DNA from: an uncultured Nitrospira sp.
Lineage (GTDB): Bacteria > Nitrospirota > Nitrospiria > Nitrospirales > Nitrospiraceae
Direction: 5' to 3'
Assembly: GCA_902500755.1 (NCBI GenBank)
Contig: CABVRV010000037.1
Location: 1 to 34,097 of the forward strand
Length of the DNA: 34,097 bases
The translations under genes and the position numbers were made by a program. The notes under the pieces were generated by a model. That model saw only the letters and a list, made by a program, of their open reading frames with translations. It was not told the origin of the DNA and searched no databases. Below, piece by piece: positions 1 through 11,338 of this stretch (the first letter of the stretch is position 1; each line of letters starts with the position of its first letter).

Positions 1-101
1 ATTGCAGATTCCGCAGGACCGGATACTGCGTGGGATCCTTGGCGACACCAGACGTCATAGCGGAACACATTGTAGGGGATGGACTGGAGCGGCTGCAACC
101 T
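1..101. other. Window edge, no assignable gene
   Basis: These bases precede the first repeat. On the minus strand a frame opens with a possible ATG near base 56 and runs off the left edge, but it has no Shine-Dalgarno sequence and only about 19 codons are visible. The plus strand also stays open in more than one frame. Nothing here can be named; the neighbouring sequence would be required to decide whether a minus-strand gene starts here. Confidence 0.3.
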
Positions 102-224
102 GAGGATGCCGCAAAACCACGCCAGCTTCGTTCTCGCATCGCTCAAGGCCTCAACGTACCAACCACGTACGCCTCAGCCTTTCGCTCGCTGCGGCCTCGC
201 TGGACGAGCTTTTCCAGCATCCTC
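102..224 (-). repeat. Structured palindromic repeat, copy A
   Basis: A 123 bp imperfect palindrome. Read on the minus strand it begins GAGGATGC and ends GCATCCTC; further in, CCAGC pairs with GCTGG and the centre is CGTAC-GTGGTTG-GTACG. Copy B at 14027-14150 has the same layout in the opposite orientation. Two blocks of about 19-20 bases flanking the middle (CCAGCGAGGCCGCAGCGAG and CGATGCGAGAACGAAGCTGG) are identical in both copies although they do not pair well with each other. It lies 37 bases past the stop of the last gene of the 7303-262 series, so it may end or protect that transcript. No transposase is nearby. A REP/MITE-like dispersed element is the likeliest class. Confidence 0.85.
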
Positions 225-261
225 TGAACTCTCAATAGCTCCCATGTGCGCCGTACGATCT

Positions 262-1023
262 CTAGTGAGTATCCGGAGGGTGCTCTTGGCCTCGCCAAGC
301 GAGCACACACAACGCTCCCACGACGACAACCACCAGCCAGATGGTCGGCCGACCATAGGAGGCATCGGAAAATTCGATCAAGTCCGTCAAGCGGCCGATC
401 AACAAGGACATGCGGGCCATGACCGTATAGCCGAAGGCGGCGCCGAATGAAATCATGAGGAACAGCACGCCGGCGCGAGCTACAACCTTTCCTGCCCCGC
501 TATGTTCAATGGAGAAAAAGAAGTAAAAGAGGACCGACCCAACCCCCAGCAAAATGATGATCGCATTGAGGTCGCTGGCTGGATTGAGCAGATTCATCGA
601 AAAGGTGAGGCCGTCCTGTCCCGCAAGCGACAAGAGTGGTCGAATGGTGTCCTCGACTTGCTTGAGGATAAAGGATGAAATCGTTCGTGGAATCGCTAAT
701 CCGGCCCCCATCCCGACAATGAAGGCGAAGGCATATCGAGACATCCAGGCTGCTTTCGGCACATACCGAGTCAGCATCAGCATCCCAATCGCGACGGGAA
801 TCAGCAGGGCGATCTCACCGTTCTCCACGATCGGTTTGACGACCAAGTGGACGATGACCGTATCGTAGGTCTTCACGATCACATAGCCCACCGAGACACC
901 TACATAGAGATGTTCCGCGAGCTTGAAAAGCGGGTTATCTTTATAGAGAAAGGAAAAGATGAGTAGCGTCAACCCGGTCGCGACCCAAGCCCCTACGATC
1001 AATTCAAACGGCATGGCATTCAC
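262..1023 (-). CDS. Multi-pass membrane protein of MutL-like cluster
   Basis: A 253-residue protein that I do not recognise by name. It has about seven hydrophobic segments: near residues 7-25, 38-58, 70-88, 95-115, 150-172, 180-205 and 228-245, with a short polar C-terminus. No enzymatic motif is visible. The start is a GTG at 1023 preceded by GAGGG about ten bases upstream; an ATG three codons in (1014) is the alternative. It follows the 274-residue gene by seven bases, so the two are surely cotranscribed, and it is the last gene of the series. As a membrane partner of the other cluster proteins it could form part of a complex, but that is inference. Confidence 0.8.
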   Translation of the reverse strand: MNAMPFELIVGAWVATGLTLLIFSFLYKDNPLFKLAEHLYVGVSVGYVIVKTYDTVIVHLVVKPIVENGEIALLIPVAIGMLMLTRYVPKAAWMSRYAFAFIVGMGAGLAIPRTISSFILKQVEDTIRPLLSLAGQDGLTFSMNLLNPASDLNAIIILLGVGSVLFYFFFSIEHSGAGKVVARAGVLFLMISFGAAFGYTVMARMSLLIGRLTDLIEFSDASYGRPTIWLVVVVVGALCVLAWRGQEHPPDTH

Positions 1024-1030
1024 AAATACG

Positions 1031-1855
1031 TTACCCTCTCTGCCGGCGAAGCGAAAAATAGAACAAGTTGCACATGATCACCAACACAATGATGGCGAGA
1101 TGCGTGGCCGACTGGGCATCCATTCCCGCTACGGCCTTGCCCTTTTGGCCGATGAGGCTTTCATACTCCGCTGCGCCCCGGAGCCCACCGATGAGCCCGT
1201 TAATCTGCCCACTCCGGAGCAAGGGATATAATCCCGGGGCCATCACTCCTGTGCAACCGCCGCCAAGTTCGAACTTATATTTGTCCTTCCCGAAGACATA
1301 CCATTCTTCCACTCCCGGCCGTCCGGCGCCCAAGCTGACCATGTAGCCGACATCTTTCAGGTTGCGGACTCCGTCCAAGATCGGCAACTCCTTGGTGGGT
1401 CTTCCACCATAGTCGCTTGGAAATGCCGAATAGAGATTCTGTCCCATGTTGATGATCACGGCCTGCCCGCCAGGGCTCCATCCGAGAAAGGCATAGTCTT
1501 TTCCGTATTCCTTCCCCATCTCTTTGGCTACCTGCGTTACGAGCTGGTCTGCCATACCGGTCCCGGACACCCAGAGCGTCATGGTGATCACGCGAAGATT
1601 TTTCTTGAAGGCATGGCGCAAGAGCGCGATGGCTTGCGGATAGAGTTCCGGTTTGGACGCGGGATCAAAATCAATCGACAAGAGAAAGACCGACCGCTCC
1701 GGCAAGGATTCGATGTGATCATACACACCGCGTACTTCCGTTGAAATCTTGATCGGCAAACCGACCGGATAGAGCAACGGCAAGAGCGTGCAGAGGCCGA
1801 TCACCAGAAAGATAATCCGCCGATCAATTTTGAGCATGCGCTCTGATAAGGTCAC
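1031..1855 (-). CDS. Conserved membrane-anchored protein, unknown function
   Basis: A 274-residue protein with one hydrophobic segment near each end (about residues 13-31 and 250-267) and a soluble middle of some 220 residues, rich in glycine loops (GGGCTGVMAPGLYP, GLIGGLRGAAEYE). The middle has alternating strand/helix character like an alpha/beta fold and by topology probably faces the periplasm. No catalytic motif could be assigned. Translation likely starts at GTG 1855, which has GAGG six bases upstream; ATG at 1837 is an alternative. The gene sits between two multi-pass membrane protein genes in the MutL-like cluster and is separated from the upstream one by a word-repeat gap. Confidence 0.8.
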   Translation of the reverse strand: MTLSERMLKIDRRIIFLVIGLCTLLPLLYPVGLPIKISTEVRGVYDHIESLPERSVFLLSIDFDPASKPELYPQAIALLRHAFKKNLRVITMTLWVSGTGMADQLVTQVAKEMGKEYGKDYAFLGWSPGGQAVIINMGQNLYSAFPSDYGGRPTKELPILDGVRNLKDVGYMVSLGAGRPGVEEWYVFGKDKYKFELGGGCTGVMAPGLYPLLRSGQINGLIGGLRGAAEYESLIGQKGKAVAGMDAQSATHLAIIVLVIMCNLFYFSLRRQRG

Positions 1856-1863
1856 TCCGAACC

Positions 1864-1958
1864 TCGCGAAACGTAAAACGTGAGATGTGAAATGTCTCCG
1901 GCCTCACACTCAAGTCTTGTCCGATTACGTTTCACGTTTAACCTTTCACATTTCACGT
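1864..1958. repeat. Intergenic array of TTTCAC/ACGTGAAA words, inverted arms
   Basis: On the minus strand the gap reads ACGTGAAATGTGAAAGG, then TTAAACGTGAAACGTAA, and after about 25 bases the inverse words ACATTTCACATCTCACG and TTTTACGTTTCGCG. The arms (about 1866-1896 and 1921-1958) can pair into a long imperfect hairpin, and each arm is itself made of near-repeats of RACGTGAAA. It fills most of the space between two cotranscribed genes. It could act as a transcript stabiliser or attenuator, or be a neutral repeat expansion. Confidence 0.7.
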
Positions 1959-1960
1959 CC

Positions 1961-2611
1961 TTACTCCTTACCTCCCCCCAGATACGACCGTTCTACGCCG
2001 AAAATGATCTTGAACGATAAGGCCACGGCCCCAAGGCTGACTCCGATCAAAATGGCTCGACGCACCGACGCGTTGAGCACATTCAAAATCCAGGAAGACA
2101 CATCCCCGCTCAGCGGTATCAAATACTCACCCAACGGCACCCGCCCCATCATGACGATCACAGCCGCCACCAAGAGCACTGCCGCTTCACGACTTCTGGC
2201 TCTGAACGAGCGATAGGCGGCGGACGCGATGAAGAAGGCCAGGATGGCAAACATGGTTCCTTGCAAGGGCACCATCATAAAGTTGTAGACCCAGCCGAAC
2301 GCCGTCATGGCCCCTTCGACGCTTTCCTTGCCGTCGGCCCATAACCCAACCGTGATCGTGCCCAACATTCCGGCATACAACACGAGGCTATAGCCCCACC
2401 CCGCTTCTTGACGCCTGATCTTGGCCGCATGCTGATGAAAGAGACTGGTCACACCCAAAATCAGCGCAAACCCCCCGATGATCTGGAGCCACTTCGTCGC
2501 CGACGTGAGCATGTGCTCCGAAGCCGGATGCGGCACGTAGTACTGACCGGCAAACAGGAGACCGGTGATAAGCGTGATCAAGAGCGGGAGTTGTCGTCGT
2601 AGAAAAATCAT
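1961..2611 (-). CDS. Six-pass membrane protein of MutL-like cluster
   Basis: A 216-residue hydrophobic protein with about six membrane segments (roughly residues 8-26, 40-58, 75-92, 108-135, 145-162 and 183-203). The loops are short and I see no catalytic motif or known signature. Its ATG overlaps the stop of the preceding 423-residue gene in an ATGA junction (2608-2611), a sign of translational coupling. The protein ends in GGGKE. It belongs to the membrane half of the cluster, and I know no function for the family. Confidence 0.82.
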   Translation of the reverse strand: MIFLRRQLPLLITLITGLLFAGQYYVPHPASEHMLTSATKWLQIIGGFALILGVTSLFHQHAAKIRRQEAGWGYSLVLYAGMLGTITVGLWADGKESVEGAMTAFGWVYNFMMVPLQGTMFAILAFFIASAAYRSFRARSREAAVLLVAAVIVMMGRVPLGEYLIPLSGDVSSWILNVLNASVRRAILIGVSLGAVALSFKIIFGVERSYLGGGKE

Positions 2612-3879
2612 TTCAGATCCCTAAACAGATCGAGCACGAGTTCCGGCCACTGCGCGCCGGTCACGACTCCGACCGTCGCCAATACCGTTCCGACGGCAAT
2701 CGCACCAAGAATCACCGCTTTCCCGATATCTTGACCCAGGAGTGTCCCGATCTGCACCGGCTCCTTGGAAAGATACGCGCTGGCCGCGTAGAGCTCTTCA
2801 CCGATCAACGTATAGTCGCAGGTCGTGACGAAGAACGGCAGCTGGTGGTCCGAGTCGGTGCCGGCGATCTGAATGGCGCCGGTACTCGCGCCGGTTTCCG
2901 TCAGCAACAACGATTCGGCGAAATAGGAGCCCATAAAAAAATTGGCGGCCGGCTTTTTTCGCAGCATAATACCGTCCACCGCCGCCGTGTAACTGAACTG
3001 ATCCGACGTAATAAAAAAGTTTGCGTCTTCCTTGAAGAGATCAGGCTTACCTGCTTCTAAATAGGCCTGCTTTGTAATTTCCTGACACACCGCCATCGTC
3101 ATCGGTTCTCGGTGCGGAACCATCAGTTCCGTTTCATACAGCGCAGCACGTTTCGCAACCTTGCCTAAGATGACGGCGGCGGCGATCGTTGAGGGATCAT
3201 GCAGGTCGTGCGCCCCGGTGAGATACAGAATCGGCTTACCCAATTCGGTGGCGCGTCCGATCGCTTCATCGACTGCATCAAGACCAGGAATACGCCGGAG
3301 GAAGATGTCGTTTCGCTTCGCATGACTGATCGAGTAGAAGACCAGGCCGCCGAATGAGACTGCAATGATGAGATTGTTGAGTTGGTTCCAGTTGAACCAG
3401 TTCGGCGATGGAGCGGCGACCACAACCGGACTAAACATCCGTTGATCGTCTTGCACCGTGGCCACGGCCACGGCATAGGACATGCCATCGATTATTTCTA
3501 TCCCCTTCCCGCTTCTGATCACGACGTGATGCCAGGTCTTGTCGACTTTTCTTGTCCACCAAGCGGTTTTTGAGTCTTTGATGTAATGGGTATTCGATGG
3601 AAACTCCGTGATGATGATGAATGCCGATGGATCGCTCGCCGAAGCTTCTCCGACCAAGACCTGATAACGAATGTCGGGCCCATCGCTGGGTGCGGGAGCC
3701 CACTGCACCGTGAGGCTTCCTCCTCCATCGCTTGACGTATCGAAGACCTGCACGCCTTGCGGCTCAGTCAAGGCGGTTTGTGCCAGCGTGTCCAGTGGCA
3801 CGAGGTTTGAGGCACACACAATCAACTGCAAGGAGAACCAGCCGAAACCGATGTAGAATCGTCTCAACCTGCTCCTCAC
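2608..3879 (-). CDS. DUF6754-like membrane protein with FN3-like N-terminus
   Basis: A 423-residue protein. An N-terminal signal or anchor (about residues 8-30) is followed by a beta-rich, fibronectin type III-like region (about 38-160, with GGSLTVQWAPAPSDGPDIRY). A membrane segment lies near 168-185, a conserved cytoplasmic domain near 190-385 (motifs FLRRIPGLDAVDEAIGRATE, ILYLTGAHDLHD, KKPAANFFMGSYFAES, FVTTCDYTLIGEELYAASAY), and a last membrane helix near 390-412. From memory the conserved domain matches the family labelled DUF6754, whose function is unknown. The start is taken as GTG 3879 behind a purine-rich GGGGTGAGGG stretch; a TTG four codons in is also possible. It overlaps the next gene by four bases. 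Confidence 0.85.
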   Translation of the reverse strand: MRSRLRRFYIGFGWFSLQLIVCASNLVPLDTLAQTALTEPQGVQVFDTSSDGGGSLTVQWAPAPSDGPDIRYQVLVGEASASDPSAFIIITEFPSNTHYIKDSKTAWWTRKVDKTWHHVVIRSGKGIEIIDGMSYAVAVATVQDDQRMFSPVVVAAPSPNWFNWNQLNNLIIAVSFGGLVFYSISHAKRNDIFLRRIPGLDAVDEAIGRATELGKPILYLTGAHDLHDPSTIAAAVILGKVAKRAALYETELMVPHREPMTMAVCQEITKQAYLEAGKPDLFKEDANFFITSDQFSYTAAVDGIMLRKKPAANFFMGSYFAESLLLTETGASTGAIQIAGTDSDHQLPFFVTTCDYTLIGEELYAASAYLSKEPVQIGTLLGQDIGKAVILGAIAVGTVLATVGVVTGAQWPELVLDLFRDLK

Positions 3880-3903
3880 CCCTCACCCCTTACCATTTAG
3901 CCC

Positions 3904-5037
3904 TCACGTTGCCCATGCCCCTTCAATCACCTCGATATTCGTCCGTGGAACCACGACTGTGCTTCCGTCGGACAAGGTCACTTCCAACACTCGCACCTCG
4001 CTCTCCGTGGGGATCTTCATCAGTTCCGGCGGAAGCGCCGACACTTCGCCGATGCGCCCGAACATGGGATCACGGATGATACGGACCGGATCGCCACGAC
4101 GAATGCCCTCGCGTTGTGGCTGAGCCGCTCTCCGTGCCTGTCCATCTCCCTGCGGGATGATAATTTCAGGACGAATCACCCCGGCTCGGATCTGAGTGGC
4201 ACCGGAGATCGAGGCTTTCCGACCGGCGTGAGCTGAAAGCAGCTTAAACGTTTTCGCCGCCATTGGAATGGTCCCAAAACCCTCGGTCAAGATCAAAGTA
4301 AACCCCACCTGCTCTGTCCCCGTGATTGCCACGCCAAGGTCATAGCCCAACAAGGCGCGCAGATCTTCATCGTGAATCCCGCCGACGACCAGACCGGCCA
4401 CACCAACCGCTTTGGCCTGCGTCATCGCATCGGCTGAAAGGAACGACCCTCCGATCACAACTTTGCCCTTCATGGCAGGAGTGAGGTGCCCAGGAGTCAA
4501 CGGTTCATCAGGCGCCTTCACCACCATCACAATCTCACCCGACGTCTCCCCTCCGATTCCGAAGATGCCTTGCACCAGGCTGCAAGTCGTTTCCACCACA
4601 ACATCCTGCTGTGGAATCGTTTCGATAATGGTTCCATCGAGATAGGCCAGCAGCTGCAATAGGCGAGGCGGTTCGCGCAAGAGCACTTGCCCTGTCACGC
4701 TCGACACTGATTCGATCGTCCCCGCGACCGGTGATCGAATCTCGGTCTTGAACCATTTAATCAGCGGCTTATTCTCGGCAAGAATCTCATCTATCGCGAC
4801 CGCATCACCGGCCTTCTTGATAAGATAGTCGTTGATCTCACTCGGGGCCACACTCAGCTGATTTGCGAGATTGATCGGAAACACTTTCCCCGGCAATGCT
4901 GCCTGAGCAACCACCTGATCGGAACGGACTCGATCACCGACTTGCACGAGCAACGTCCCGGGCAAAGGTAACATGCGCCGACGATGGACGACCGTATGGT
5001 CGGTGACGGTTAAGCCGGGTGTATAGGAATGAGCCAT
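3904..5037 (-). CDS. Barrel-sandwich/KOW-like protein of MutL-like cluster
   Basis: A soluble 377-residue protein. Residues about 1-140 resemble the barrel-sandwich (biotinyl/lipoyl-like) folds of RnfC and NqrA N-termini: two hammerhead-like stretches, PLPGTLLVQVGDRVRSDQVV and EIRSPVAGTIESVSSVTGQV. There is no lysine in an MKM-type motif, so lipoylation or biotinylation is unlikely. A glycine-rich middle (about 160-290) includes GIFGIGGE and GVAGLVVGGIHDEDL. The C-terminus (about 310-375) contains a KOW-like motif, GDPVRIIRDPMFGRIGEV. The gene lies directly downstream of the MutL-like ATPase gene across a word-repeat gap, so a shared complex is plausible. The upstream ribosome-binding sequence is weak (AAGAAA). 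No known function. Confidence 0.83.
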   Translation of the reverse strand: MAHSYTPGLTVTDHTVVHRRRMLPLPGTLLVQVGDRVRSDQVVAQAALPGKVFPINLANQLSVAPSEINDYLIKKAGDAVAIDEILAENKPLIKWFKTEIRSPVAGTIESVSSVTGQVLLREPPRLLQLLAYLDGTIIETIPQQDVVVETTCSLVQGIFGIGGETSGEIVMVVKAPDEPLTPGHLTPAMKGKVVIGGSFLSADAMTQAKAVGVAGLVVGGIHDEDLRALLGYDLGVAITGTEQVGFTLILTEGFGTIPMAAKTFKLLSAHAGRKASISGATQIRAGVIRPEIIIPQGDGQARRAAQPQREGIRRGDPVRIIRDPMFGRIGEVSALPPELMKIPTESEVRVLEVTLSDGSTVVVPRTNIEVIEGAWAT

Positions 5038-5055
5038 CTTGTTTCTTGTTCACCA

Positions 5056-5127
5056 GTACTGAGTGACGAGGACTGTGGACTGAGAGAACGCGTCTGCTCA
5101 ATACCTCAGTCCTCAGCCCTCAGTCCT
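5056..5127. repeat. Intergenic GGACTGAG word array with inverted arms
   Basis: On the minus strand, right after the MutL-like stop, the sequence reads AGTGAGGACTGAGGGCTGAG then GACTGAGG, that is three direct copies of a GGACTGAG-type word. About 20 bases later comes the inverse, CTCAGTCCACAGTCCTCGTC then ACTCAG. The arms can form a long imperfect stem within the transcript. There is no U-tract, so it is not a classical intrinsic terminator. It lies between two genes that appear to belong to one operon. Confidence 0.72.
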
Positions 5128-5129
5128 CA

Positions 5130-6962
5130 CTACTTAACAGTCGGGTACAACCTTACAGCGTCAAACCATTTTGTGAGTGCCGCGACACGGCCTGGTTGAT
5201 CAGCTGGAAGTAGGAGCGGTCTCCCTCGGCCATCGAGCAAGAGTCCGACAACTCCGCCCTGGACCTCTCGGGTCACGGCGACACCAGCCCCCGCCCCCAT
5301 GTTGACCCCTTTTGCAGGCTGAAACTTGATCGTGGCTTGTGCACCTGATTCCAGCGGAAATAGCCGCAGCTCGCCAAACTTCAGTTGCTCTTTCATAGTC
5401 TTCCCATCAGGCCACGTCATTTCATAGTCTGCACAGAGCTCTCCGTCTTTTCCCTGTCCGATCGGCGCGACGCAGGTGCCGAGATAGATCATGCAGTCTC
5501 GCACAAAAACATCCGTTGCAGCCTGTTCATTGATCGTGGACAGTACTCCCAGATGCGGCATCATAAAAATGCTGTCAACCGACAACCTCGTACAACCCGT
5601 CGGCTCATAGGCATCGACCATCATGAGCATCGATTGGATTCGCCGTGGAGCATGGGACAGGATTCCCCCGCTTCCGACGATGAGATCCAGCTTCAGCATG
5701 TCGATCAACGTCTTGCCGGAGGTCTGTTGTTCGAAGACATCCGAAATCGTCCGCTCTTGCTGAACACCTTTGAGTCCCGTCGCCAGCGACTTGTGATGGA
5801 TCAGGGCCAGCCGCAAGGCTTCGCGTGCTATCGCCTGCTCGATTTGGAGTTCATCCAGTGTTTGCGGAATAGTCGTCGGCCGGATCATCTTGTTCTTGAT
5901 CCGGTTGCGCAGGGTCTGCTCGTCGATCGTCAACGGCACCCAACGCATAATGTTGGCCAATCCTGCTTCAGCCAGCACATTGGACACACTGTAGGACATG
6001 CCGAGATTGGCGCTGACCGTCCGGTTAAACACCCCATCGAACACGGAGAACACGTCGGTCGTCGCGCCTCCGATATCCACGCCGATCAGGTTCAAATGTT
6101 CTCGCTTGGCGATCGCCTCCATGATGAGGCCGACGGCAGCGGGAGTCGGCATGATCGGCGCTCCGGTCATGTCGATCAGCTTCTTATACCCGGGCGCCTG
6201 CTGCATGACATGCTCAAGAAAGAGATCATGGATCTTGTTACGCGCCGGCGCCAAGTTCTCTCGCTCCAGGACCGGTCGGATGTTCTCCGTAACCACCAGC
6301 GCCGACTTGTTCTCCAGAATCGTTCTCACTTGCGGCTGGGCTTCCTTATTGCCTGCGTAGATCAACGGTAACTTGTACGTCACGCCGAATCGTGGTCGGG
6401 GTTCCGCCGCGGCGATATATTCCGCCATCTCTACTACGTGCGTGACCGCCCCACCATCGGTTCCACCCGACATCAGAATCATATCCGGCCTCATGGAACG
6501 GATGCGCTCGATCTTTTCATGCGGCAACCGACCATCGTTGGCGGCCAACACATCGATCACGATGGCGCCGGCCCCCAGCGCGGCACGTTGCGCGCTCTCG
6601 CCCGTCATATTCTGCACGACTCCCGTCACCATCATCTGCAACCCGCCACCGGCACTGCTGGTCGAGATATAGATGTCGACTCCCGTCTTGTCGTCTCGAC
6701 AGGGTGTGATGATCTTGTCGCCATCCAAAATCTTGCGACCGGAGAGCTCCTCGATTTCAGCAATAGCATTCAGCACACCACGCGTCACGTCTTCGAACGG
6801 CGCCTCTACTGTCGTCGGCGCTTCTCCGCGATAGGTCTGCCGATACTCGTCGCCGACCTTTTCGATGAGAATAGCTTTCGTCGTCGTGCTGCCACAATCG
6901 GTGGCGACAATCACATTGAGAGGACGATCGATCTTGGGAGGGGTAGAGGCGGAAACCGTCAT
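5130..6962 (-). CDS. MutL-like (glutamate mutase L family) ASKHA ATPase
   Basis: A 610-residue protein of the MutL family, named for a gene found beside coenzyme B12-dependent glutamate mutase and belonging to the actin/Hsp70/sugar kinase (ASKHA) fold. Visible motifs are phosphate 1 loop VATDCGSTTTKAILIEK (residues about 18-35), SAGGGLQMMVTGVVQNMTGE (about 105-124), MSGGTDGGA (about 165) and phosphate 2 loop LIGVDIGGATTDVFSVFDG (about 290-308). A glycine-rich region, DLIVGSGGILSHAPRR, follows near 425. At about 610 residues it is longer than the MutL members I recall from glutamate mutase operons. No mutE or mutS gene is in the window, so a role in B12 enzyme reactivation cannot be assumed. 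The start ATG 6962 overlaps the upstream stop (ATGA, 6959-6962). Confidence 0.9.
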   Translation of the reverse strand: MTVSASTPPKIDRPLNVIVATDCGSTTTKAILIEKVGDEYRQTYRGEAPTTVEAPFEDVTRGVLNAIAEIEELSGRKILDGDKIITPCRDDKTGVDIYISTSSAGGGLQMMVTGVVQNMTGESAQRAALGAGAIVIDVLAANDGRLPHEKIERIRSMRPDMILMSGGTDGGAVTHVVEMAEYIAAAEPRPRFGVTYKLPLIYAGNKEAQPQVRTILENKSALVVTENIRPVLERENLAPARNKIHDLFLEHVMQQAPGYKKLIDMTGAPIMPTPAAVGLIMEAIAKREHLNLIGVDIGGATTDVFSVFDGVFNRTVSANLGMSYSVSNVLAEAGLANIMRWVPLTIDEQTLRNRIKNKMIRPTTIPQTLDELQIEQAIAREALRLALIHHKSLATGLKGVQQERTISDVFEQQTSGKTLIDMLKLDLIVGSGGILSHAPRRIQSMLMMVDAYEPTGCTRLSVDSIFMMPHLGVLSTINEQAATDVFVRDCMIYLGTCVAPIGQGKDGELCADYEMTWPDGKTMKEQLKFGELRLFPLESGAQATIKFQPAKGVNMGAGAGVAVTREVQGGVVGLLLDGRGRPLLLPADQPGRVAALTKWFDAVRLYPTVK

Positions 6963-7303
6963 TGAGCCGTTGCTCCCTTTGGAGCAGACTTGGCTTCAAT
7001 GATGGCAATGAGACGAGTGACGGTATCCCGGCGTTCGAGCAGGCGGGCAATTTGCTCGACTTCTTTGACGTTGAACGCGCAATCGATGATCGGCGTCATA
7101 AAGTGGAGGGCCTGACTGCCCAGAAAGTTCATCGGCCCCATGGACTCCAAAAACATCGTCGCCGGCGCCGCCATACCGCGTTTGACGATCGTCTCGGCGA
7201 TCCGTTCCAGCAACTGAACATCCTCGATGGAAAGAGGCTGATCCTCAGGCCGTACGGCGAAGGCATGGCGCAGTCCGGCTCGAACTTTGGCCAGCTTTTC
7301 CAT
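6959..7303 (-). CDS. Small conserved protein, first gene of MutL-like cluster
   Basis: A 114-residue, mostly helical soluble protein with no family name that I recognise. Conserved-looking stretches are EDVQLLERIAETIVKRGMAA and the patch around MGPMNFLGSQALHFMTPI. I place the start at ATG 7303 because AAGGGA lies at proper spacing in front of it; the ATG nine codons upstream (7330) has no ribosome-binding sequence. The gene follows the TTGACT/TATAAT promoter at 7369-7397 and overlaps the MutL-like start by four bases, so it is translationally coupled to the ATPase and may regulate or bind it. Confidence 0.8.
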   Translation of the reverse strand: MEKLAKVRAGLRHAFAVRPEDQPLSIEDVQLLERIAETIVKRGMAAPATMFLESMGPMNFLGSQALHFMTPIIDCAFNVKEVEQIARLLERRDTVTRLIAIIEAKSAPKGATAQ

Positions 7304-7368
7304 TGCACTTCCCTTGAAGAGTGGTCGCATAAGTGTAGGTCGGATAAGGCAAACCTCAAACGGGTCGC

Positions 7369-7397
7369 ATTATATGAAGGGGGTGGAAGAGAGTCAA
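7369..7397 (-). promoter_or_regulatory. Sigma-70-type promoter of the MutL-like cluster
   Basis: On the minus strand the -35 box TTGACT (7392-7397), a 17-base spacer and a perfect -10 box TATAAT (7369-7374) are seen. The predicted start of transcription is near 7362, giving a leader of about 60 bases before ATG 7303. No other strong promoter is apparent within the cluster, so it likely drives all the genes down to 262. Confidence 0.8.
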
Positions 7398-7471
7398 TTC
7401 GATGAGAGTCTGCGAAATCGATACACTCCCATCTCCTTGCGACTTTGACATATTCATGATACTTCAAAAGT

Positions 7472-7887
7472 ATGGAACGACAGAATCCGCCCCATACCCA
7501 TGATCTCGATCGAACGATCGAGTCCGTGATGTCCCGCTATCCCTCCGTAGTCTTGTCCATACTCTTCGGATCGATGGCCAAAGATCGCCCGCACAACGAC
7601 AGTGACCTCGACATCGCAGTCGCGTCTTCCACGCCGATGACTGCTCAACCTTACATCGCCATTGTTGAAGACCTGGCGCTGGCCCTCGGCCATCCTGTAG
7701 ACCTCATCGACCTTGACCGGACTCACCATTGCTTCGGCAGATCCTGACCACGGGACGCAGAGTGCTGTGTCACGATCGAACGCTCTGCGCCGAACTCATT
7801 CTACGTATGGTCTATGAAGAGGCGGACGTCATGCCTTACTACCGCCGCATTTTGTCGGAGAGACGACAAGCATGGATCGGGACTTAG
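7472..7887 (+). pseudogene. MntA-type nucleotidyltransferase antitoxin, frameshifted
   Basis: The first 84 codons encode a minimal nucleotidyltransferase domain, with the core GSMAKDRPHNDSDLDIAV (GSx-D-x-D pattern) near residues 33-50 and the usual PVDLIDLDRT end. The frame is then lost at about 7723. The missing C-terminal part continues in another frame as LLRQILTTGRRVLCHDRTLC, on to a TAG at 7885-7887; a one-base deletion near 7721-7726 explains it. In intact MntA/HepT modules this protein adenylylates the HEPN toxin and neutralises it. Here the partner is also broken (7872-8105), so the whole module is dead. No good promoter or ribosome-binding site precedes it. Confidence 0.8.
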
Positions 7888-8105
7888 TCGAAACGAAATT
7901 GGAATCGCTCCGGCGTTGCGTCGACCGGATCGCCGAGAAGACTCCTTCCTCCGTGGATCACCTCCTTCGAGACCCTGATATTTAGGACATCATCAGCTAT
8001 CAAACGATCAACTGGAAAGTCGTCTATCAAATCTGCACACATCATCTGGACGAATTTCGTCAGTTCACAAAAGCAGTCGTCCATCATCTTCAGCGACGGT
8101 CCTGA
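7872..8105 (+). pseudogene. HepT-type HEPN toxin, stop codon and internal deletion
   Basis: Reading from ATG 7872 gives MDRDLVETKLESLRRCVDRI and a typical HepT N-terminus, then an in-frame TAG at 7983-7985 just before DII; HepT proteins usually have LQDII here, so CAG to TAG is likely. Immediately afterwards the frame jumps to the C-terminal YQTINWKVVYQICTHHLDEF, ending in TGA at 8103-8105. Roughly half of the usual length, about 60-70 codons including the central helices and the RxxxxH catalytic motif, is missing. It overlaps the tail of the frameshifted MntA-like gene, as in intact modules. It encodes no working toxin. Confidence 0.8.
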
Positions 8106-8219
8106 CCACTCTCGCCATCTTACGCAAAAATTTCTCTTCTCAGCGTTTACGCAGCGGAGCATCGCGCGTCTAAAGACTATGGCTGTAGACAAGGCCGTGA
8201 TCTTACACGGAGGCGTGAC

Positions 8220-8819
8220 ATGATGATGCGTGTGCGGAACCTACCGGTCGTCCTGGCGACGATGACCATTGCTTTGGGTGGACTGTTCTATGAAGGGAGT
8301 ACCAGCCCGGCGGCGGCGGAAGGACTCTTCGACGACGTGAATATTGGGCTGCTTTCCATTGGCGGTCGTGCAACCTATGTTGATCCTAAAGATGGCGACG
8401 CGAACTGGTTCGGCGGTGGGCAACTTCGTATCCACCCGTTCCACTTTCTGGCCATCGAAGGGTCTGTCGACTATCGCAAAACAGACATCAATTCCACCAA
8501 CGTCCGAACTTTTCCCGTACAAGGCTCAGTGTTGCTCTATCCATTCGGCACAAAGCGGCTCTCTCCTTTTATTCTCGGCGGAGCCGGCTGGTACTTTACC
8601 CATGTCGAAGGCCCCGGCGACTTCGACAAGACGCAACATCGTTTCGGCGCGCATGCGGGGGGAGGCCTACAGCTCTTTCTCACTGACTATCTCTCGCTCG
8701 ACGGTACCTATCGTCATATCTGGCTTGAGAAAATTGAGTCGAAGGATGCGTCGCTGCAGGATAAGCAATTCCAGGATAACGGACACATGGTGACCTTTGG
8801 TCTAAACTTGCACTTCTAG
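8220..8819 (+). CDS. Outer-membrane beta-barrel protein
   Basis: A 199-residue exported protein. Residues 1-34 form a signal peptide (basic start, hydrophobic core, AAA-E cleavage site). The rest alternates polar and nonpolar residues in about eight strands typical of small OmpA-like barrels, with glycine/aromatic girdles (FILGGAGWYFTHVEG; FGAHAGGGLQLFLTDYLSLD), and ends in LNLHF with a terminal phenylalanine, the usual outer-membrane assembly signal. GGAGG sits six bases ahead of ATG 8220, which decides the start among three ATGs in a row. It stands alone between a dead toxin-antitoxin pair and a gene-free stretch. Family-level call: porin-like outer-membrane beta-barrel domain protein; ligand unknown. 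Confidence 0.88.
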   Translation: MMMRVRNLPVVLATMTIALGGLFYEGSTSPAAAEGLFDDVNIGLLSIGGRATYVDPKDGDANWFGGGQLRIHPFHFLAIEGSVDYRKTDINSTNVRTFPVQGSVLLYPFGTKRLSPFILGGAGWYFTHVEGPGDFDKTQHRFGAHAGGGLQLFLTDYLSLDGTYRHIWLEKIESKDASLQDKQFQDNGHMVTFGLNLHF

Positions 8820-9310: not shown

Positions 9311-11233
9311 CTACACATCATCGAACTTGTCATGATGGTAGATGATGCGCCACGGAGGCAAACCGCCACTTACCACGGTCACCTGAAAACGCACAGGGGC
9401 TTCTTCTGCTCGATCAACTGGTGGAATCTCTGTCAGAGTCATCAAATCGGGTAGCAGACGTTGAATGCGGTACGCTGTCAGTTCTTCTACGAAGCACAAT
9501 ACCCGGTCGAGCATGAAAGAAACAAACTCGGTGACGGGTTGTCCGGAGATCAGTGGAGGCACAGCCTCGATCTTATTGCCCTGGCGTACATATGTTGTCC
9601 TCGGCAAAGTCCATCCCCTATGCTCAATGTCATTGCGGCATTCCTGCAACGGTTCAGACCATGCTCTGGTTAGGCGAAGATAATCGGCCAATGCAGAATC
9701 CATTTGGGCAATAGTCAAAAGGCCTGTTTCAAATTTTGCTTGTTTCTGGAAAAGGAAACCGATATCCGCATGCGAACCTATAAATTTCTGCATCCCTTCC
9801 TTAATCGTGCGTCCGGCAGCAGTGACAAAGCTTACCACTTCTTTCCCAAGTGCATCGTCAATGCTTTCATCGATGCGAAGGATCTGACGTTCAAGTCGTG
9901 CTACCTCACCAGATGTCACCTTGCTTGAGTGTTGCTGCCAAAGACGAGCGATCTCCTCAGCCGCTTTCCTAGCGGACCGAAGTGACGTGAGAACCACTTC
10001 GTATAAGGAATCGAACTTATCCCTCTCATCTGGGTTCGAAACGATGAGATCGCGCAGCTTCCCGACTCCAAGAAAAAGACGAGCGATAAATGCGGTCTGT
10101 GTCCCTTCATCAGACACCTTTTGGATCGTCCATTTTGGCTGTTCGACCCGCACCACCATGTTGGATTGGCTCTGAATCCTGTCTAACATTCTTGCGAAGT
10201 CAGTTTCGGTCATCGGGAGGACATAGCTGATCTCTGAATCCTCACGCTTAACGATGTTAGCATGCTGCATGTCCACACCAATAAGGAATGGCAATATTTT
10301 CGCCAAGGCCAACTTTCCGTGAGACAGAATTGTCGCGCCATCCTGCCATGGCAACAAACGCAGCGTGCATAAGCGCTTTCCATTCTTATCCTCGATCTGT
10401 ACAGGCTGAGGTCCCCAATAACGATCGTTACAGAGCTCACGCGGAACCGGGACTAGCTCTCCCTTTAGGTTGTACTGAAAGCTAGATACGATGATGACTC
10501 GTTTTGGCACATGCTCAACGACCTCTGTGCGATCCGGAAGTTGTACTCCTGGAGAGAATAAAAAGAGCTGCCCCAGCAAGAACCCCAAGAGTCGATTGAA
10601 CGTGTAAGGCCCCGTCGGCATCATGGCAACGACGACATACATGGGCGGTGTATAAGTCAGTGTGCGCATTGGGGGAGGCAGCAAATCACCGCTTGGTGGT
10701 TCGCCAGGGAATTGCACGAAATAGTTGATCGTGCCCGATGTGGCCACAACGAGCATATCCGGCCATTCTGAACTTGGCATTGTGGTATTCCATGCCACAA
10801 GCTCATGGGCGAGTCGGTCCAGTGAAACTGTCGTGCTGATAGCAAACACAATTCCCAGGGTTGTGGTCTGAACAGGTACATCACCTTCTAATCGAGGTGG
10901 TGGAGACTTCTTGAGCCGTTTGGCCTTCGCAATACGAGAACAGGCATCGAGAAACATCTCTACAGTAAGACTTTCGCAGGCATCGATCACCACTGCAGCG
11001 TTATCGGACGGGATTTCTGGAGGATCTCCGGCTTCGCCTACGGTGGCGGCATAGATCACCGATGCAAAGAGGTCTGATTTGTTTTTGTCTCTGTCGACTA
11101 AATATCCCGAACGGACCTTTAGGGGCCAACCGATATATCGGCCGAGGACATGGTTGAGAGTGACAGACAGAGTGGCTTCGACGGAAGAAATGATCTCCTT
11201 ACCGGCCTCGCACACTTCTTGAGTGAGGGTCAT
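9311..11233 (-). CDS. Unknown 640-residue protein, degenerate nuclease-like N-terminus
   Basis: I do not recognise a named family. The start is set at ATG 11233, with GGAG eight bases upstream; a longer frame from TTG 11305 lacks such support. Residues about 15-105 resemble the layout of DUF6602-like PD-(D/E)XK nuclease folds: RSGYLVDRDKNKSD (41-54), then VVIDACESLT (81-90), where active relatives would have an E-x-K. The acid-x-lysine is replaced by D-A-C, so it is probably not catalytic. The middle (about 200-330) is mixed. A helical segment with coiled-coil character spans about 400-480 (SLRSARKAAEEIARLWQQHS). The C-terminal helical domain contains ECRNDIEHRGW (R533, H538), an RxxxxH pattern as in HEPN domains. 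It stands alone in the accessory zone; a defence-type role is only a guess. Confidence 0.8.
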   Translation of the reverse strand: MTLTQEVCEAGKEIISSVEATLSVTLNHVLGRYIGWPLKVRSGYLVDRDKNKSDLFASVIYAATVGEAGDPPEIPSDNAAVVIDACESLTVEMFLDACSRIAKAKRLKKSPPPRLEGDVPVQTTTLGIVFAISTTVSLDRLAHELVAWNTTMPSSEWPDMLVVATSGTINYFVQFPGEPPSGDLLPPPMRTLTYTPPMYVVVAMMPTGPYTFNRLLGFLLGQLFLFSPGVQLPDRTEVVEHVPKRVIIVSSFQYNLKGELVPVPRELCNDRYWGPQPVQIEDKNGKRLCTLRLLPWQDGATILSHGKLALAKILPFLIGVDMQHANIVKREDSEISYVLPMTETDFARMLDRIQSQSNMVVRVEQPKWTIQKVSDEGTQTAFIARLFLGVGKLRDLIVSNPDERDKFDSLYEVVLTSLRSARKAAEEIARLWQQHSSKVTSGEVARLERQILRIDESIDDALGKEVVSFVTAAGRTIKEGMQKFIGSHADIGFLFQKQAKFETGLLTIAQMDSALADYLRLTRAWSEPLQECRNDIEHRGWTLPRTTYVRQGNKIEAVPPLISGQPVTEFVSFMLDRVLCFVEELTAYRIQRLLPDLMTLTEIPPVDRAEEAPVRFQVTVVSGGLPPWRIIYHHDKFDDV

Positions 11234-11338
11234 GCTATTCACTCCGGTGCAAATACCACGACAGAAGTGTAACATGGCAGAGTATTTCCCCGACTTCCAT
11301 TTCAATACAGCTGGTTGCTTTCCACCTCAGCATCTGAA

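Follow-up and report, generated by a model that had tools for sequence, protein, structure and literature searches.

A conserved seven-gene set joining a MutL-family ATPase to four predicted membrane proteins in Nitrospira: a candidate modular membrane machine

The 34,097-nt contig CABVRV010000037.1 of an uncultured Nitrospira sp. (assembly GCA_902500755.1), which in its whole length is the window analysed here, carries seven open reading frames (ORFs) on the minus strand within positions 262–7330. We letter them A to G in transcription order. Gene A (6959–7330, −) encodes a soluble protein of 123 residues that has no match in Pfam or NCBIfam, gene B (5130–6962, −) encodes a MutL-family ASKHA ATPase of 610 residues (PF13941), and gene C (3904–5037, −) encodes a soluble protein of 377 residues with a possible barrel-sandwich N-terminal part and a KOW-like C-terminal part. 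Gene D (2608–3879, −; GTG start) encodes a 423-residue protein of the DUF6754 family (PF20539). Gene E (1961–2611, −) encodes a membrane protein of 216 residues with about six transmembrane segments by hydropathy, gene F (1031–1855, −; GTG start) a protein of 274 residues with an α/β domain between N- and C-terminal transmembrane helices, and gene G (262–1023, −; GTG start) a membrane protein of 253 residues with about six to seven transmembrane segments by hydropathy. A preliminary description of this DNA had listed seven packed minus-strand genes, among them a small soluble protein, a 610-residue MutL ATPase and three membrane proteins besides the one resembling DUF6754, and all of these are recovered here.

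A σ70-type promoter (7397–7369, −; TTGACT-17 bp-TATAAT) with 11 of 12 consensus bases lies 5′ of gene A. Both hexamers are unchanged in all 10 loci aligned (the window and nine loci of the same genus), and the sequence farther upstream diverges. Positions 1–8300 hold four promoter-like sites, with 4.6 expected from shuffling and thus a chance number, and the site before A is the best among them, in agreement with the one strong promoter described earlier. The several 4-base overlaps described with it are found at two of the six junctions (A/B and D/E), the other four being gaps of 92 (B/C), 24 (C/D), 105 (E/F) and 7 bases (F/G). Some relatives, among them L022, L026 and L027 (L numbers denote the loci compared), have a 4-base overlap between C and D as well. 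The E/F gap (1865–1959) and the B/C gap (5055–5134) contain imperfect inverted repeats, with arms of 12–30 nt that are 77–92% complementary, together with short direct repeats.

Protein B matches the Pfam MutL family PF13941 with 437 bits (cut-off 27) over residues 18–489, and its C-terminal extension of about 120 residues reaches beyond this match. The phosphate motifs DxGSTTTK and GGATTD are present in 39 of 40 and 40 of 40 sequences, respectively, and three further motifs, SAGGGL, SANLGMSYS and DSIFMMPHLG, are fixed and specific to B. The protein falls below the cut-offs of the curated GlmL equivalog NF040745 (242.3 versus 475 bits), of the glmL_fam subfamily TIGR01319 (174 versus 204 bits) and of Or-4, a GlmL-related ornithine degradation protein (NF040744; 217 versus 600 bits). 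Among 38 B proteins of ordinary length drawn from across phyla, pairwise identity is 54–98% with a median of 65 (703 pairs), while identity between B and GlmL is 25–31% (152 pairs). In addition, a tree splits B from GlmL at 100/100 support, at a point where, as the program warns, long branches meet. By sequence, B is a predicted ASKHA-fold member of the MutL family that is separate from GlmL. The label ‘glutamate mutase L’ is wrong or misleading for the B subfamily, and the warning against this annotation in the preliminary description was justified. In the GlmL controls, the gene sits between glmS and the E subunit gene in 4 of 4 annotated records (a fifth fetched record is unannotated). A PDB sequence search returned no relative of B. 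A tblastn search of plasmids with B returned ten records below 60% identity, of which the annotated ones read glmL/glmS or ‘glutamate mutase L’. DNA mismatch-repair MutL was considered for B and rejected, being a different family that has the name alone in common.

Three MutL-family proteins differ from ordinary B. Two long homologues, L188:5200–7884 (−) and L189:6806–9682 (−), enter the tree with 895 and 959 residues, their frames running to about 990; they are 34–46% identical to ordinary B, and no A lies beside them in the available stretches. The third, L190:8532–10028 (−), has 499 residues and is closer to GlmL (38–45%); its genome also has an ordinary B, and by eye no glmS or glmE was noticed near it.

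No glmS or glmE gene is present in the window. Among 59 genomes of the window's order, its own genome included, none has a match to glutamate mutase E (PF06368) above the cut-off and one has a sub-threshold match; among 50 other genomes with D, none is above the cut-off and two are sub-threshold. Methylmalonyl-CoA mutase occurs in 21 of the 59 genomes, including the window's own, where it lies on another contig; it is found together with B in 20 genomes, and B occurs without it in 24. On these counts a link of the set to a B12 mutase is rejected. The absence of a mutase had been part of the preliminary description, which held that a B12 mutase regularly found in the cluster would speak against it; none was noticed among the recurrent neighbours, which were inspected by eye, with Pfam applied to chosen representatives only.

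The other two soluble proteins are less readily classified by family. In loci holding both genes, homologues of A lie directly before B; the alignment of A has no hydrophobic transmembrane segment, and a PDB sequence search found no relative of it. The alignment of C likewise lacks a transmembrane segment, and 27 other C sequences are 47–76% identical to the window protein. Matches of C to Pfam are RnfC_N (20.2 bits, cut-off 25.6), Biotin_lipoyl (15, cut-off 22.1) and KOW (12.4, cut-off 22.3), and regions of SPT5 and NusG match it weakly among PDB sequences (best expectation value, E, 0.037). The earlier designation of C as a barrel-sandwich/KOW protein thus finds matches of both kinds, all of them below cut-off. 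By eye, no conserved ETDKA-like lipoyl-lysine site is seen in the 28-row alignment of C. None of A, C, E, F and G reached a Pfam family over cut-off.

Hydropathy, structural models and charge pattern predict that D, E, F and G are membrane proteins. D matches DUF6754 with 384 bits (cut-off 27). Its model, with a predicted local distance difference test (pLDDT) score of 88.9, places a signal or transmembrane segment first, followed by an FN3-like domain, a transmembrane helix, a six-stranded α/β domain and a second transmembrane helix. Of the earlier label, a DUF6754-like FN3 protein, the first half is clear; the second is traced to a weak PDB profile match of the N-terminus to titin A77–A78 (E 0.012), which we take to be FN3 domains, and to Foldseek matches of the model to Ig/receptor domains over about 120–134 columns. 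Three Foldseek hits of D at E ≤ 0.001 have template-modelling scores (TM-scores) to the query of 0.14–0.21 and were not counted as the same fold. The model of F (pLDDT 96.0, predicted TM-score 0.90) consists of one six-stranded α/β domain between two transmembrane helices, for which Foldseek found no fold match in the PDB at E ≤ 0.001. Apart from the weak similarities to KOW and FN3 and from matches at chance level, PDB sequence searches revealed no relative of C, D or F. The positive-inside pattern predicts that the domain of F is outside and that the DUF6754 domain of D is cytosolic. The models of D and F have an identical order of helix, six strand-helix units and transmembrane helix. Homology of the two by sequence is not supported, as hhalign found no similarity between their profiles, and the common order of strands and helices in the models may reflect convergence.

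We tabulated gene order in 200 loci, which were picked by DUF6754 or, for L172–L191, by MutL, so that co-occurrence is conditional on one gene; gene A, being short, is missed more often in searches. All seven genes stand in the order A–G in 92 of the 200 loci, specifically in 37 of 40 from the window's own order, 14 of 25 from Latescibacterota, 4 of 15 from Elusimicrobiota, 9 of 20 from Planctomycetota, and 28 of 100 scan and MutL-chosen stretches. The order is found in Nitrospirales, Latescibacterota, Planctomycetota including anammox bacteria, Elusimicrobiota, Methylomirabilota and others. Because it is kept across phyla, the genes are not randomly scattered, and the proposal that they constitute a set survives the tabulation that the preliminary description had called for, although A-B-C and D-E-F-G are often apart. 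Of the remaining 108 loci, 41 are truncated near the genes by the end of the stretch and 67 have room on both sides, these 67 showing mostly D-E-F-G without A-B-C, or the reverse; L222, L226 and L230 depart from the A–G order. Within the 40 loci of the own order, the string ABCDEFG is seen in 32 and the rest are small variants or cuts.

The set is widely but unevenly distributed. In the window's own order, B is found in 44 of the 59 genomes, own genome included. In the phylum sample, DUF6754 occurs in 114 of 396 genomes, all matches falling in three families of one order, with 108 of 111 genomes of the window's own family positive and no match in family f3 of the same order (262 further matchless genomes are unlisted). 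It is absent from 14 control genomes. To find far relatives, a collection of species genomes was scanned with a D motif absent from the window's own family, which gave at least 588 stretches, 586 of them confirmed. The best 80 loci were used here, and their titles name Methylomirabilota, Latescibacterota, Planctomycetota (including Brocadia, Scalindua and Kuenenia), Elusimicrobia, WOR-3, Zixibacteria, BRC1 and others. They contain D in 80 (by selection), E in 78, F in 77, G in 75, C in 41, B in 32 and A in 27. Phylum samples taken around single genomes show DUF6754 in 50 of 199 genomes (Brocadia), 54 of 64 (Latescibacterota) and 16 of 149 (Elusimicrobia); the sample around the L118 genome is the same 64 genomes as the Latescibacterota one, and a link to Gemmatimonadota considered for L118 was rejected for this reason. 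In 50 genomes with D, chosen by us from the best 80 scan loci, 48 have a MutL match. Searches of viral contigs (with single and four aligned queries), of plasmids by tblastn with D and F, and of PHROGs gave no relative, no match and no useful match, respectively.

The soluble genes A-B-C and the membrane genes D-E-F-G are separable. Of 20 stretches around MutL, taken mostly where D lies elsewhere, 14 lack D and have A-B, B-C or A-B-C, two contain the whole set, and in the remaining four MutL stands by itself or almost so, three of these being unusual in length. D-E-F-G behaves as a block, which occurs on its own or as two to three copies in tandem. Furthermore, 21 of the 50 genomes with D hold at least two near-full-length copies of it, up to six, in a hand tally that counts a copy as near-full-length when its match covers roughly 200 of 257 positions. 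Of these 21 genomes, 15 have one MutL match, two have none and four have more than one (in one case as two fragments). It is mainly because one soluble unit accompanies several membrane modules that we read A-B-C as a shared energy unit.

We tentatively propose that A–G form a single modular machine of the inner membrane that is driven by ATP and is most likely a transporter; the complex, its use of ATP, the membrane sides, transport and the substrate are each what we infer. In this machine, A, B and C would be a soluble cytosolic unit comprising the ASKHA-fold ATPase B, a carrier- or adaptor-like C and a small partner A, while E and G would be the multi-spanning part, a pore or path. D would present its α/β domain to the cytosol and its FN3-like domain outside, and F would present outside an α/β domain with the same strand and helix order as that of D. 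A small molecule or peptide may cross the inner membrane, handed between the F and D domains at the expense of ATP used by B. One A-B-C unit could serve several D-E-F-G modules, like the shared energy unit of some transporters. We are far more certain that the seven genes are functionally linked than that they serve transport.

The genes beside the set suggest a connection with peptide, amino-acid and lipoate metabolism but do not single out a substrate. Of the matches to SBP5, OppB, OppC and OppD/F no farther than 2.5 kb from core genes, 65 of 65 are on the same strand (OppD/F 38 in 18 loci, SBP5 14 in 13, OppC 8, OppB 5), as are all matches to LipA (13), LplA (9), GcvPB (6) and Memo (35). 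Between 2.5 and 5 kb the counts are OppD/F 5, SBP5 2, OppC 0, OppB 2, LipA 0, LplA 1, GcvPB 2 and Memo 0; between 5 and 10 kb, a bin with 0.57 times the sequence of the nearest one, they are OppD/F 8 (three on the same strand), SBP5 0, OppC 1, OppB 2, LipA 0, LplA 1, GcvPB 0 and Memo 0. Threonine synthase, by comparison, has four matches within 2.5 kb, all of them on the opposite strand. In L134 (Elusimicrobia) the order is B-C-SBP5-OppB-OppC-OppD-OppF-D-E-F-G, with all five Opp genes confirmed by Pfam; L115 also has an Opp operon between C and D, L118 reads SBP5-OppB-OppC-C-D-E-F-G-OppD-OppF, and L110 reads A–G-SBP5-OppD-OppF. gcvPB overlaps A by a few bases in L179 and L185, and gcvT-H-PA-PB precede A in L186. 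lipA lies before A, within 2.5 kb and on the same strand, in 13 Nitrospirales loci (including L036, L037, L038, L076, L078, L080, L082, L086 and L090), an arrangement not found in the window. Of 40 Nitrospirales loci, 35 have Memo (PF01875 by Pfam on L079:3787–5040, −) within 2.5 kb after G and on its strand, and in the window the next downstream gene, of which only the start is present (1–58, −), has first codons that by eye belong to the Memo family and is possibly on the same transcript.

Several observations weigh against the proposed transporter. To our knowledge, no ASKHA ATPase is known to drive a transporter; neither D nor F resembles a solved structure from which a substrate site could be read, and the two profiles share no sequence similarity. 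In five of 20 Planctomycetota loci (L239, L242, L245, L246 and L250), C-D or B-C-D is present but E, F and G are not recognised, and the 3.2 kb following D contain no membrane-like ORF; D can therefore occur where its module partners are missing from the vicinity, and the recount of these planctomycete loci slightly lowered our confidence in the proposal. L231 and L256 carry A and D-E-F-G with no B or C between, and two of the 50 genomes with D have no MutL match. The neighbour references were picked after the loci had been inspected, and the OppD/F matches, which lie within 2.5 kb in only 18 of 200 loci, may include other ABC (ATP-binding cassette) ATPases (L188, 28% identity). Nitrospirales, finally, keep the set almost without exception, with no peptide-transport neighbour in these loci.

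Four other explanations bear on the same evidence. GlmL is presumed to be a reactivase or a cofactor-loading chaperone, and B belongs with it in one MutL family; A-B-C could accordingly do such work for a lipoate- or amino-acid-linked enzyme, or for the membrane module itself, in place of a B12 mutase. The flanking of the set by lipA (13 loci), lplA (9) and gcvPB (6) on the same strand in separate lineages, the overlap of gcvPB with A in L179 and L185 and the weak barrel-sandwich match in C are consistent with this. We nevertheless consider it unlikely, because a soluble reactivase needs no four membrane proteins, the lipoate-linked neighbours vary by lineage and are missing in most loci, C shows by eye no conserved lipoyl-lysine motif, and no glutamate mutase is present in the genomes checked (0 of 59 and 0 of 50).

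The interleaved or adjacent, same-strand Opp genes of Latescibacterota, Elusimicrobiota, Sumerlaeota and Anammoxibacter loci suggest instead that the set assists or regulates oligopeptide import by SBP5-OppBCDF, for example in gating or sensing at the inner membrane. The scarcity of nearby OppD/F, the retention of the core set in Nitrospirales without Opp and the multiplication of D-E-F-G in L160 and L161 without an Opp match make this quite improbable. FtsA, MreB and PilM are ASKHA proteins that organise membrane structures, and B, which is very strongly conserved, might similarly be an actin-like scaffold for the envelope, division or a compartment, with D–G as its anchors. We give this little credence: no division or wall gene was noticed by eye among the recurrent neighbours, and several D-E-F-G blocks with one B fit exchangeable modules better. 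That A–G are ordinary housekeeping neighbours without joint function, as differing flanks between lineages and the separate occurrence of parts of the set in some genomes would allow, is already disfavoured and hardly credible given the common order of all seven genes across phyla, the co-presence of B and D even where they are apart, and the tandem duplication of D-E-F-G as a block.

Further genes were observed around the set. In family f2 (L038:5066–6623, −; L086:6138–6887, −), one or two secreted-looking proteins stand between C and D, of which one was compared with Pfam and is Tll0287-like (PF11845). Seven loci (L155:6375–6812, +; L110, L120, L121, L154, L157 and L186) have an additional protein of about 146 residues, with a hydrophobic segment by eye and no Pfam match, whose frame runs 4 to 46 bases into the start of A. 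A protein of about 1190 residues with PD40 repeats and a sub-threshold Peptidase_MA_2 match follows the Opp genes 3′ of G in four loci (L149:15515–19087, +; L106, L118 and L121). FAD/iron-sulphur oxidoreductases lie beside D-E-F-G in L126 and L138 by Pfam; the two loci look like close kin and were counted as one case. In the window, a 664-residue ORF near the cluster (9311–11305, −) has no Pfam match and no tblastn match in 40 Nitrospirales stretches. A 91-residue ORF with a nucleotidyltransferase domain (7472–7747, +; PF18765) is 71% identical over 86 residues to a protein of 144 residues (L025:10409–10840), and because of this difference in length it is probably truncated.

A gene order kept over phylum distances and an ATPase whose identity between phyla is 54% or more are what one would expect of core machinery. 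Five of the seven proteins reach no Pfam family over cut-off and the other two are named misleadingly or as of unknown function. The set occurs in 108 of 111 genomes of the window's family and in anammox bacteria, both organisms of the nitrogen cycle. If the machine is a transporter, it would represent a new way of coupling ATP to transport. It is conceivable, though on balance doubtful, that such ATP-driven transporters form a new class, in which the power comes from a GlmL-like ASKHA ATPase and not from one of the ABC, P-type or rotary kind, and one soluble unit is shared among exchangeable membrane modules; this class would extend over several phyla, largely uncultured, and nearly all the genomes examined from the window's own family. 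In open literature, judged by titles and abstract starts, we found nothing on the gene set, and likewise no mention of DUF6754, PF20539, PF13941 or TIGR01319, with preprints and most subscription papers outside the scope of these searches.

We found no known multi-protein system that holds these families, and the function of the set is predicted only; its parts can nevertheless be set beside known ones. D is a clear member of DUF6754, a family of unknown function that names one of the seven proteins. B shares with GlmL the Pfam family PF13941 and the motifs, DxGSTxTK and GGATTD being present in all four GlmL controls, but GlmL has 461–467 residues and B about 600, and B has motifs of its own and no GlmS or GlmE partner. 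Or-4 (NF040744) has the superfamily in common with B, which falls short of its cut-off. The SBP5-OppBCDF oligopeptide ABC importer forms one gene string with the set in several lineages, but it belongs to families separate from A–G and is not beside the set in most loci. None of A–G matches an ABC or energy-coupling factor (ECF) family in Pfam, ABC genes occurring as neighbours only, and ECF transporters use ABC ATPases. By gene counts, however, the set resembles the ECF-type modular importers, in which one energy unit likewise goes with several membrane modules.

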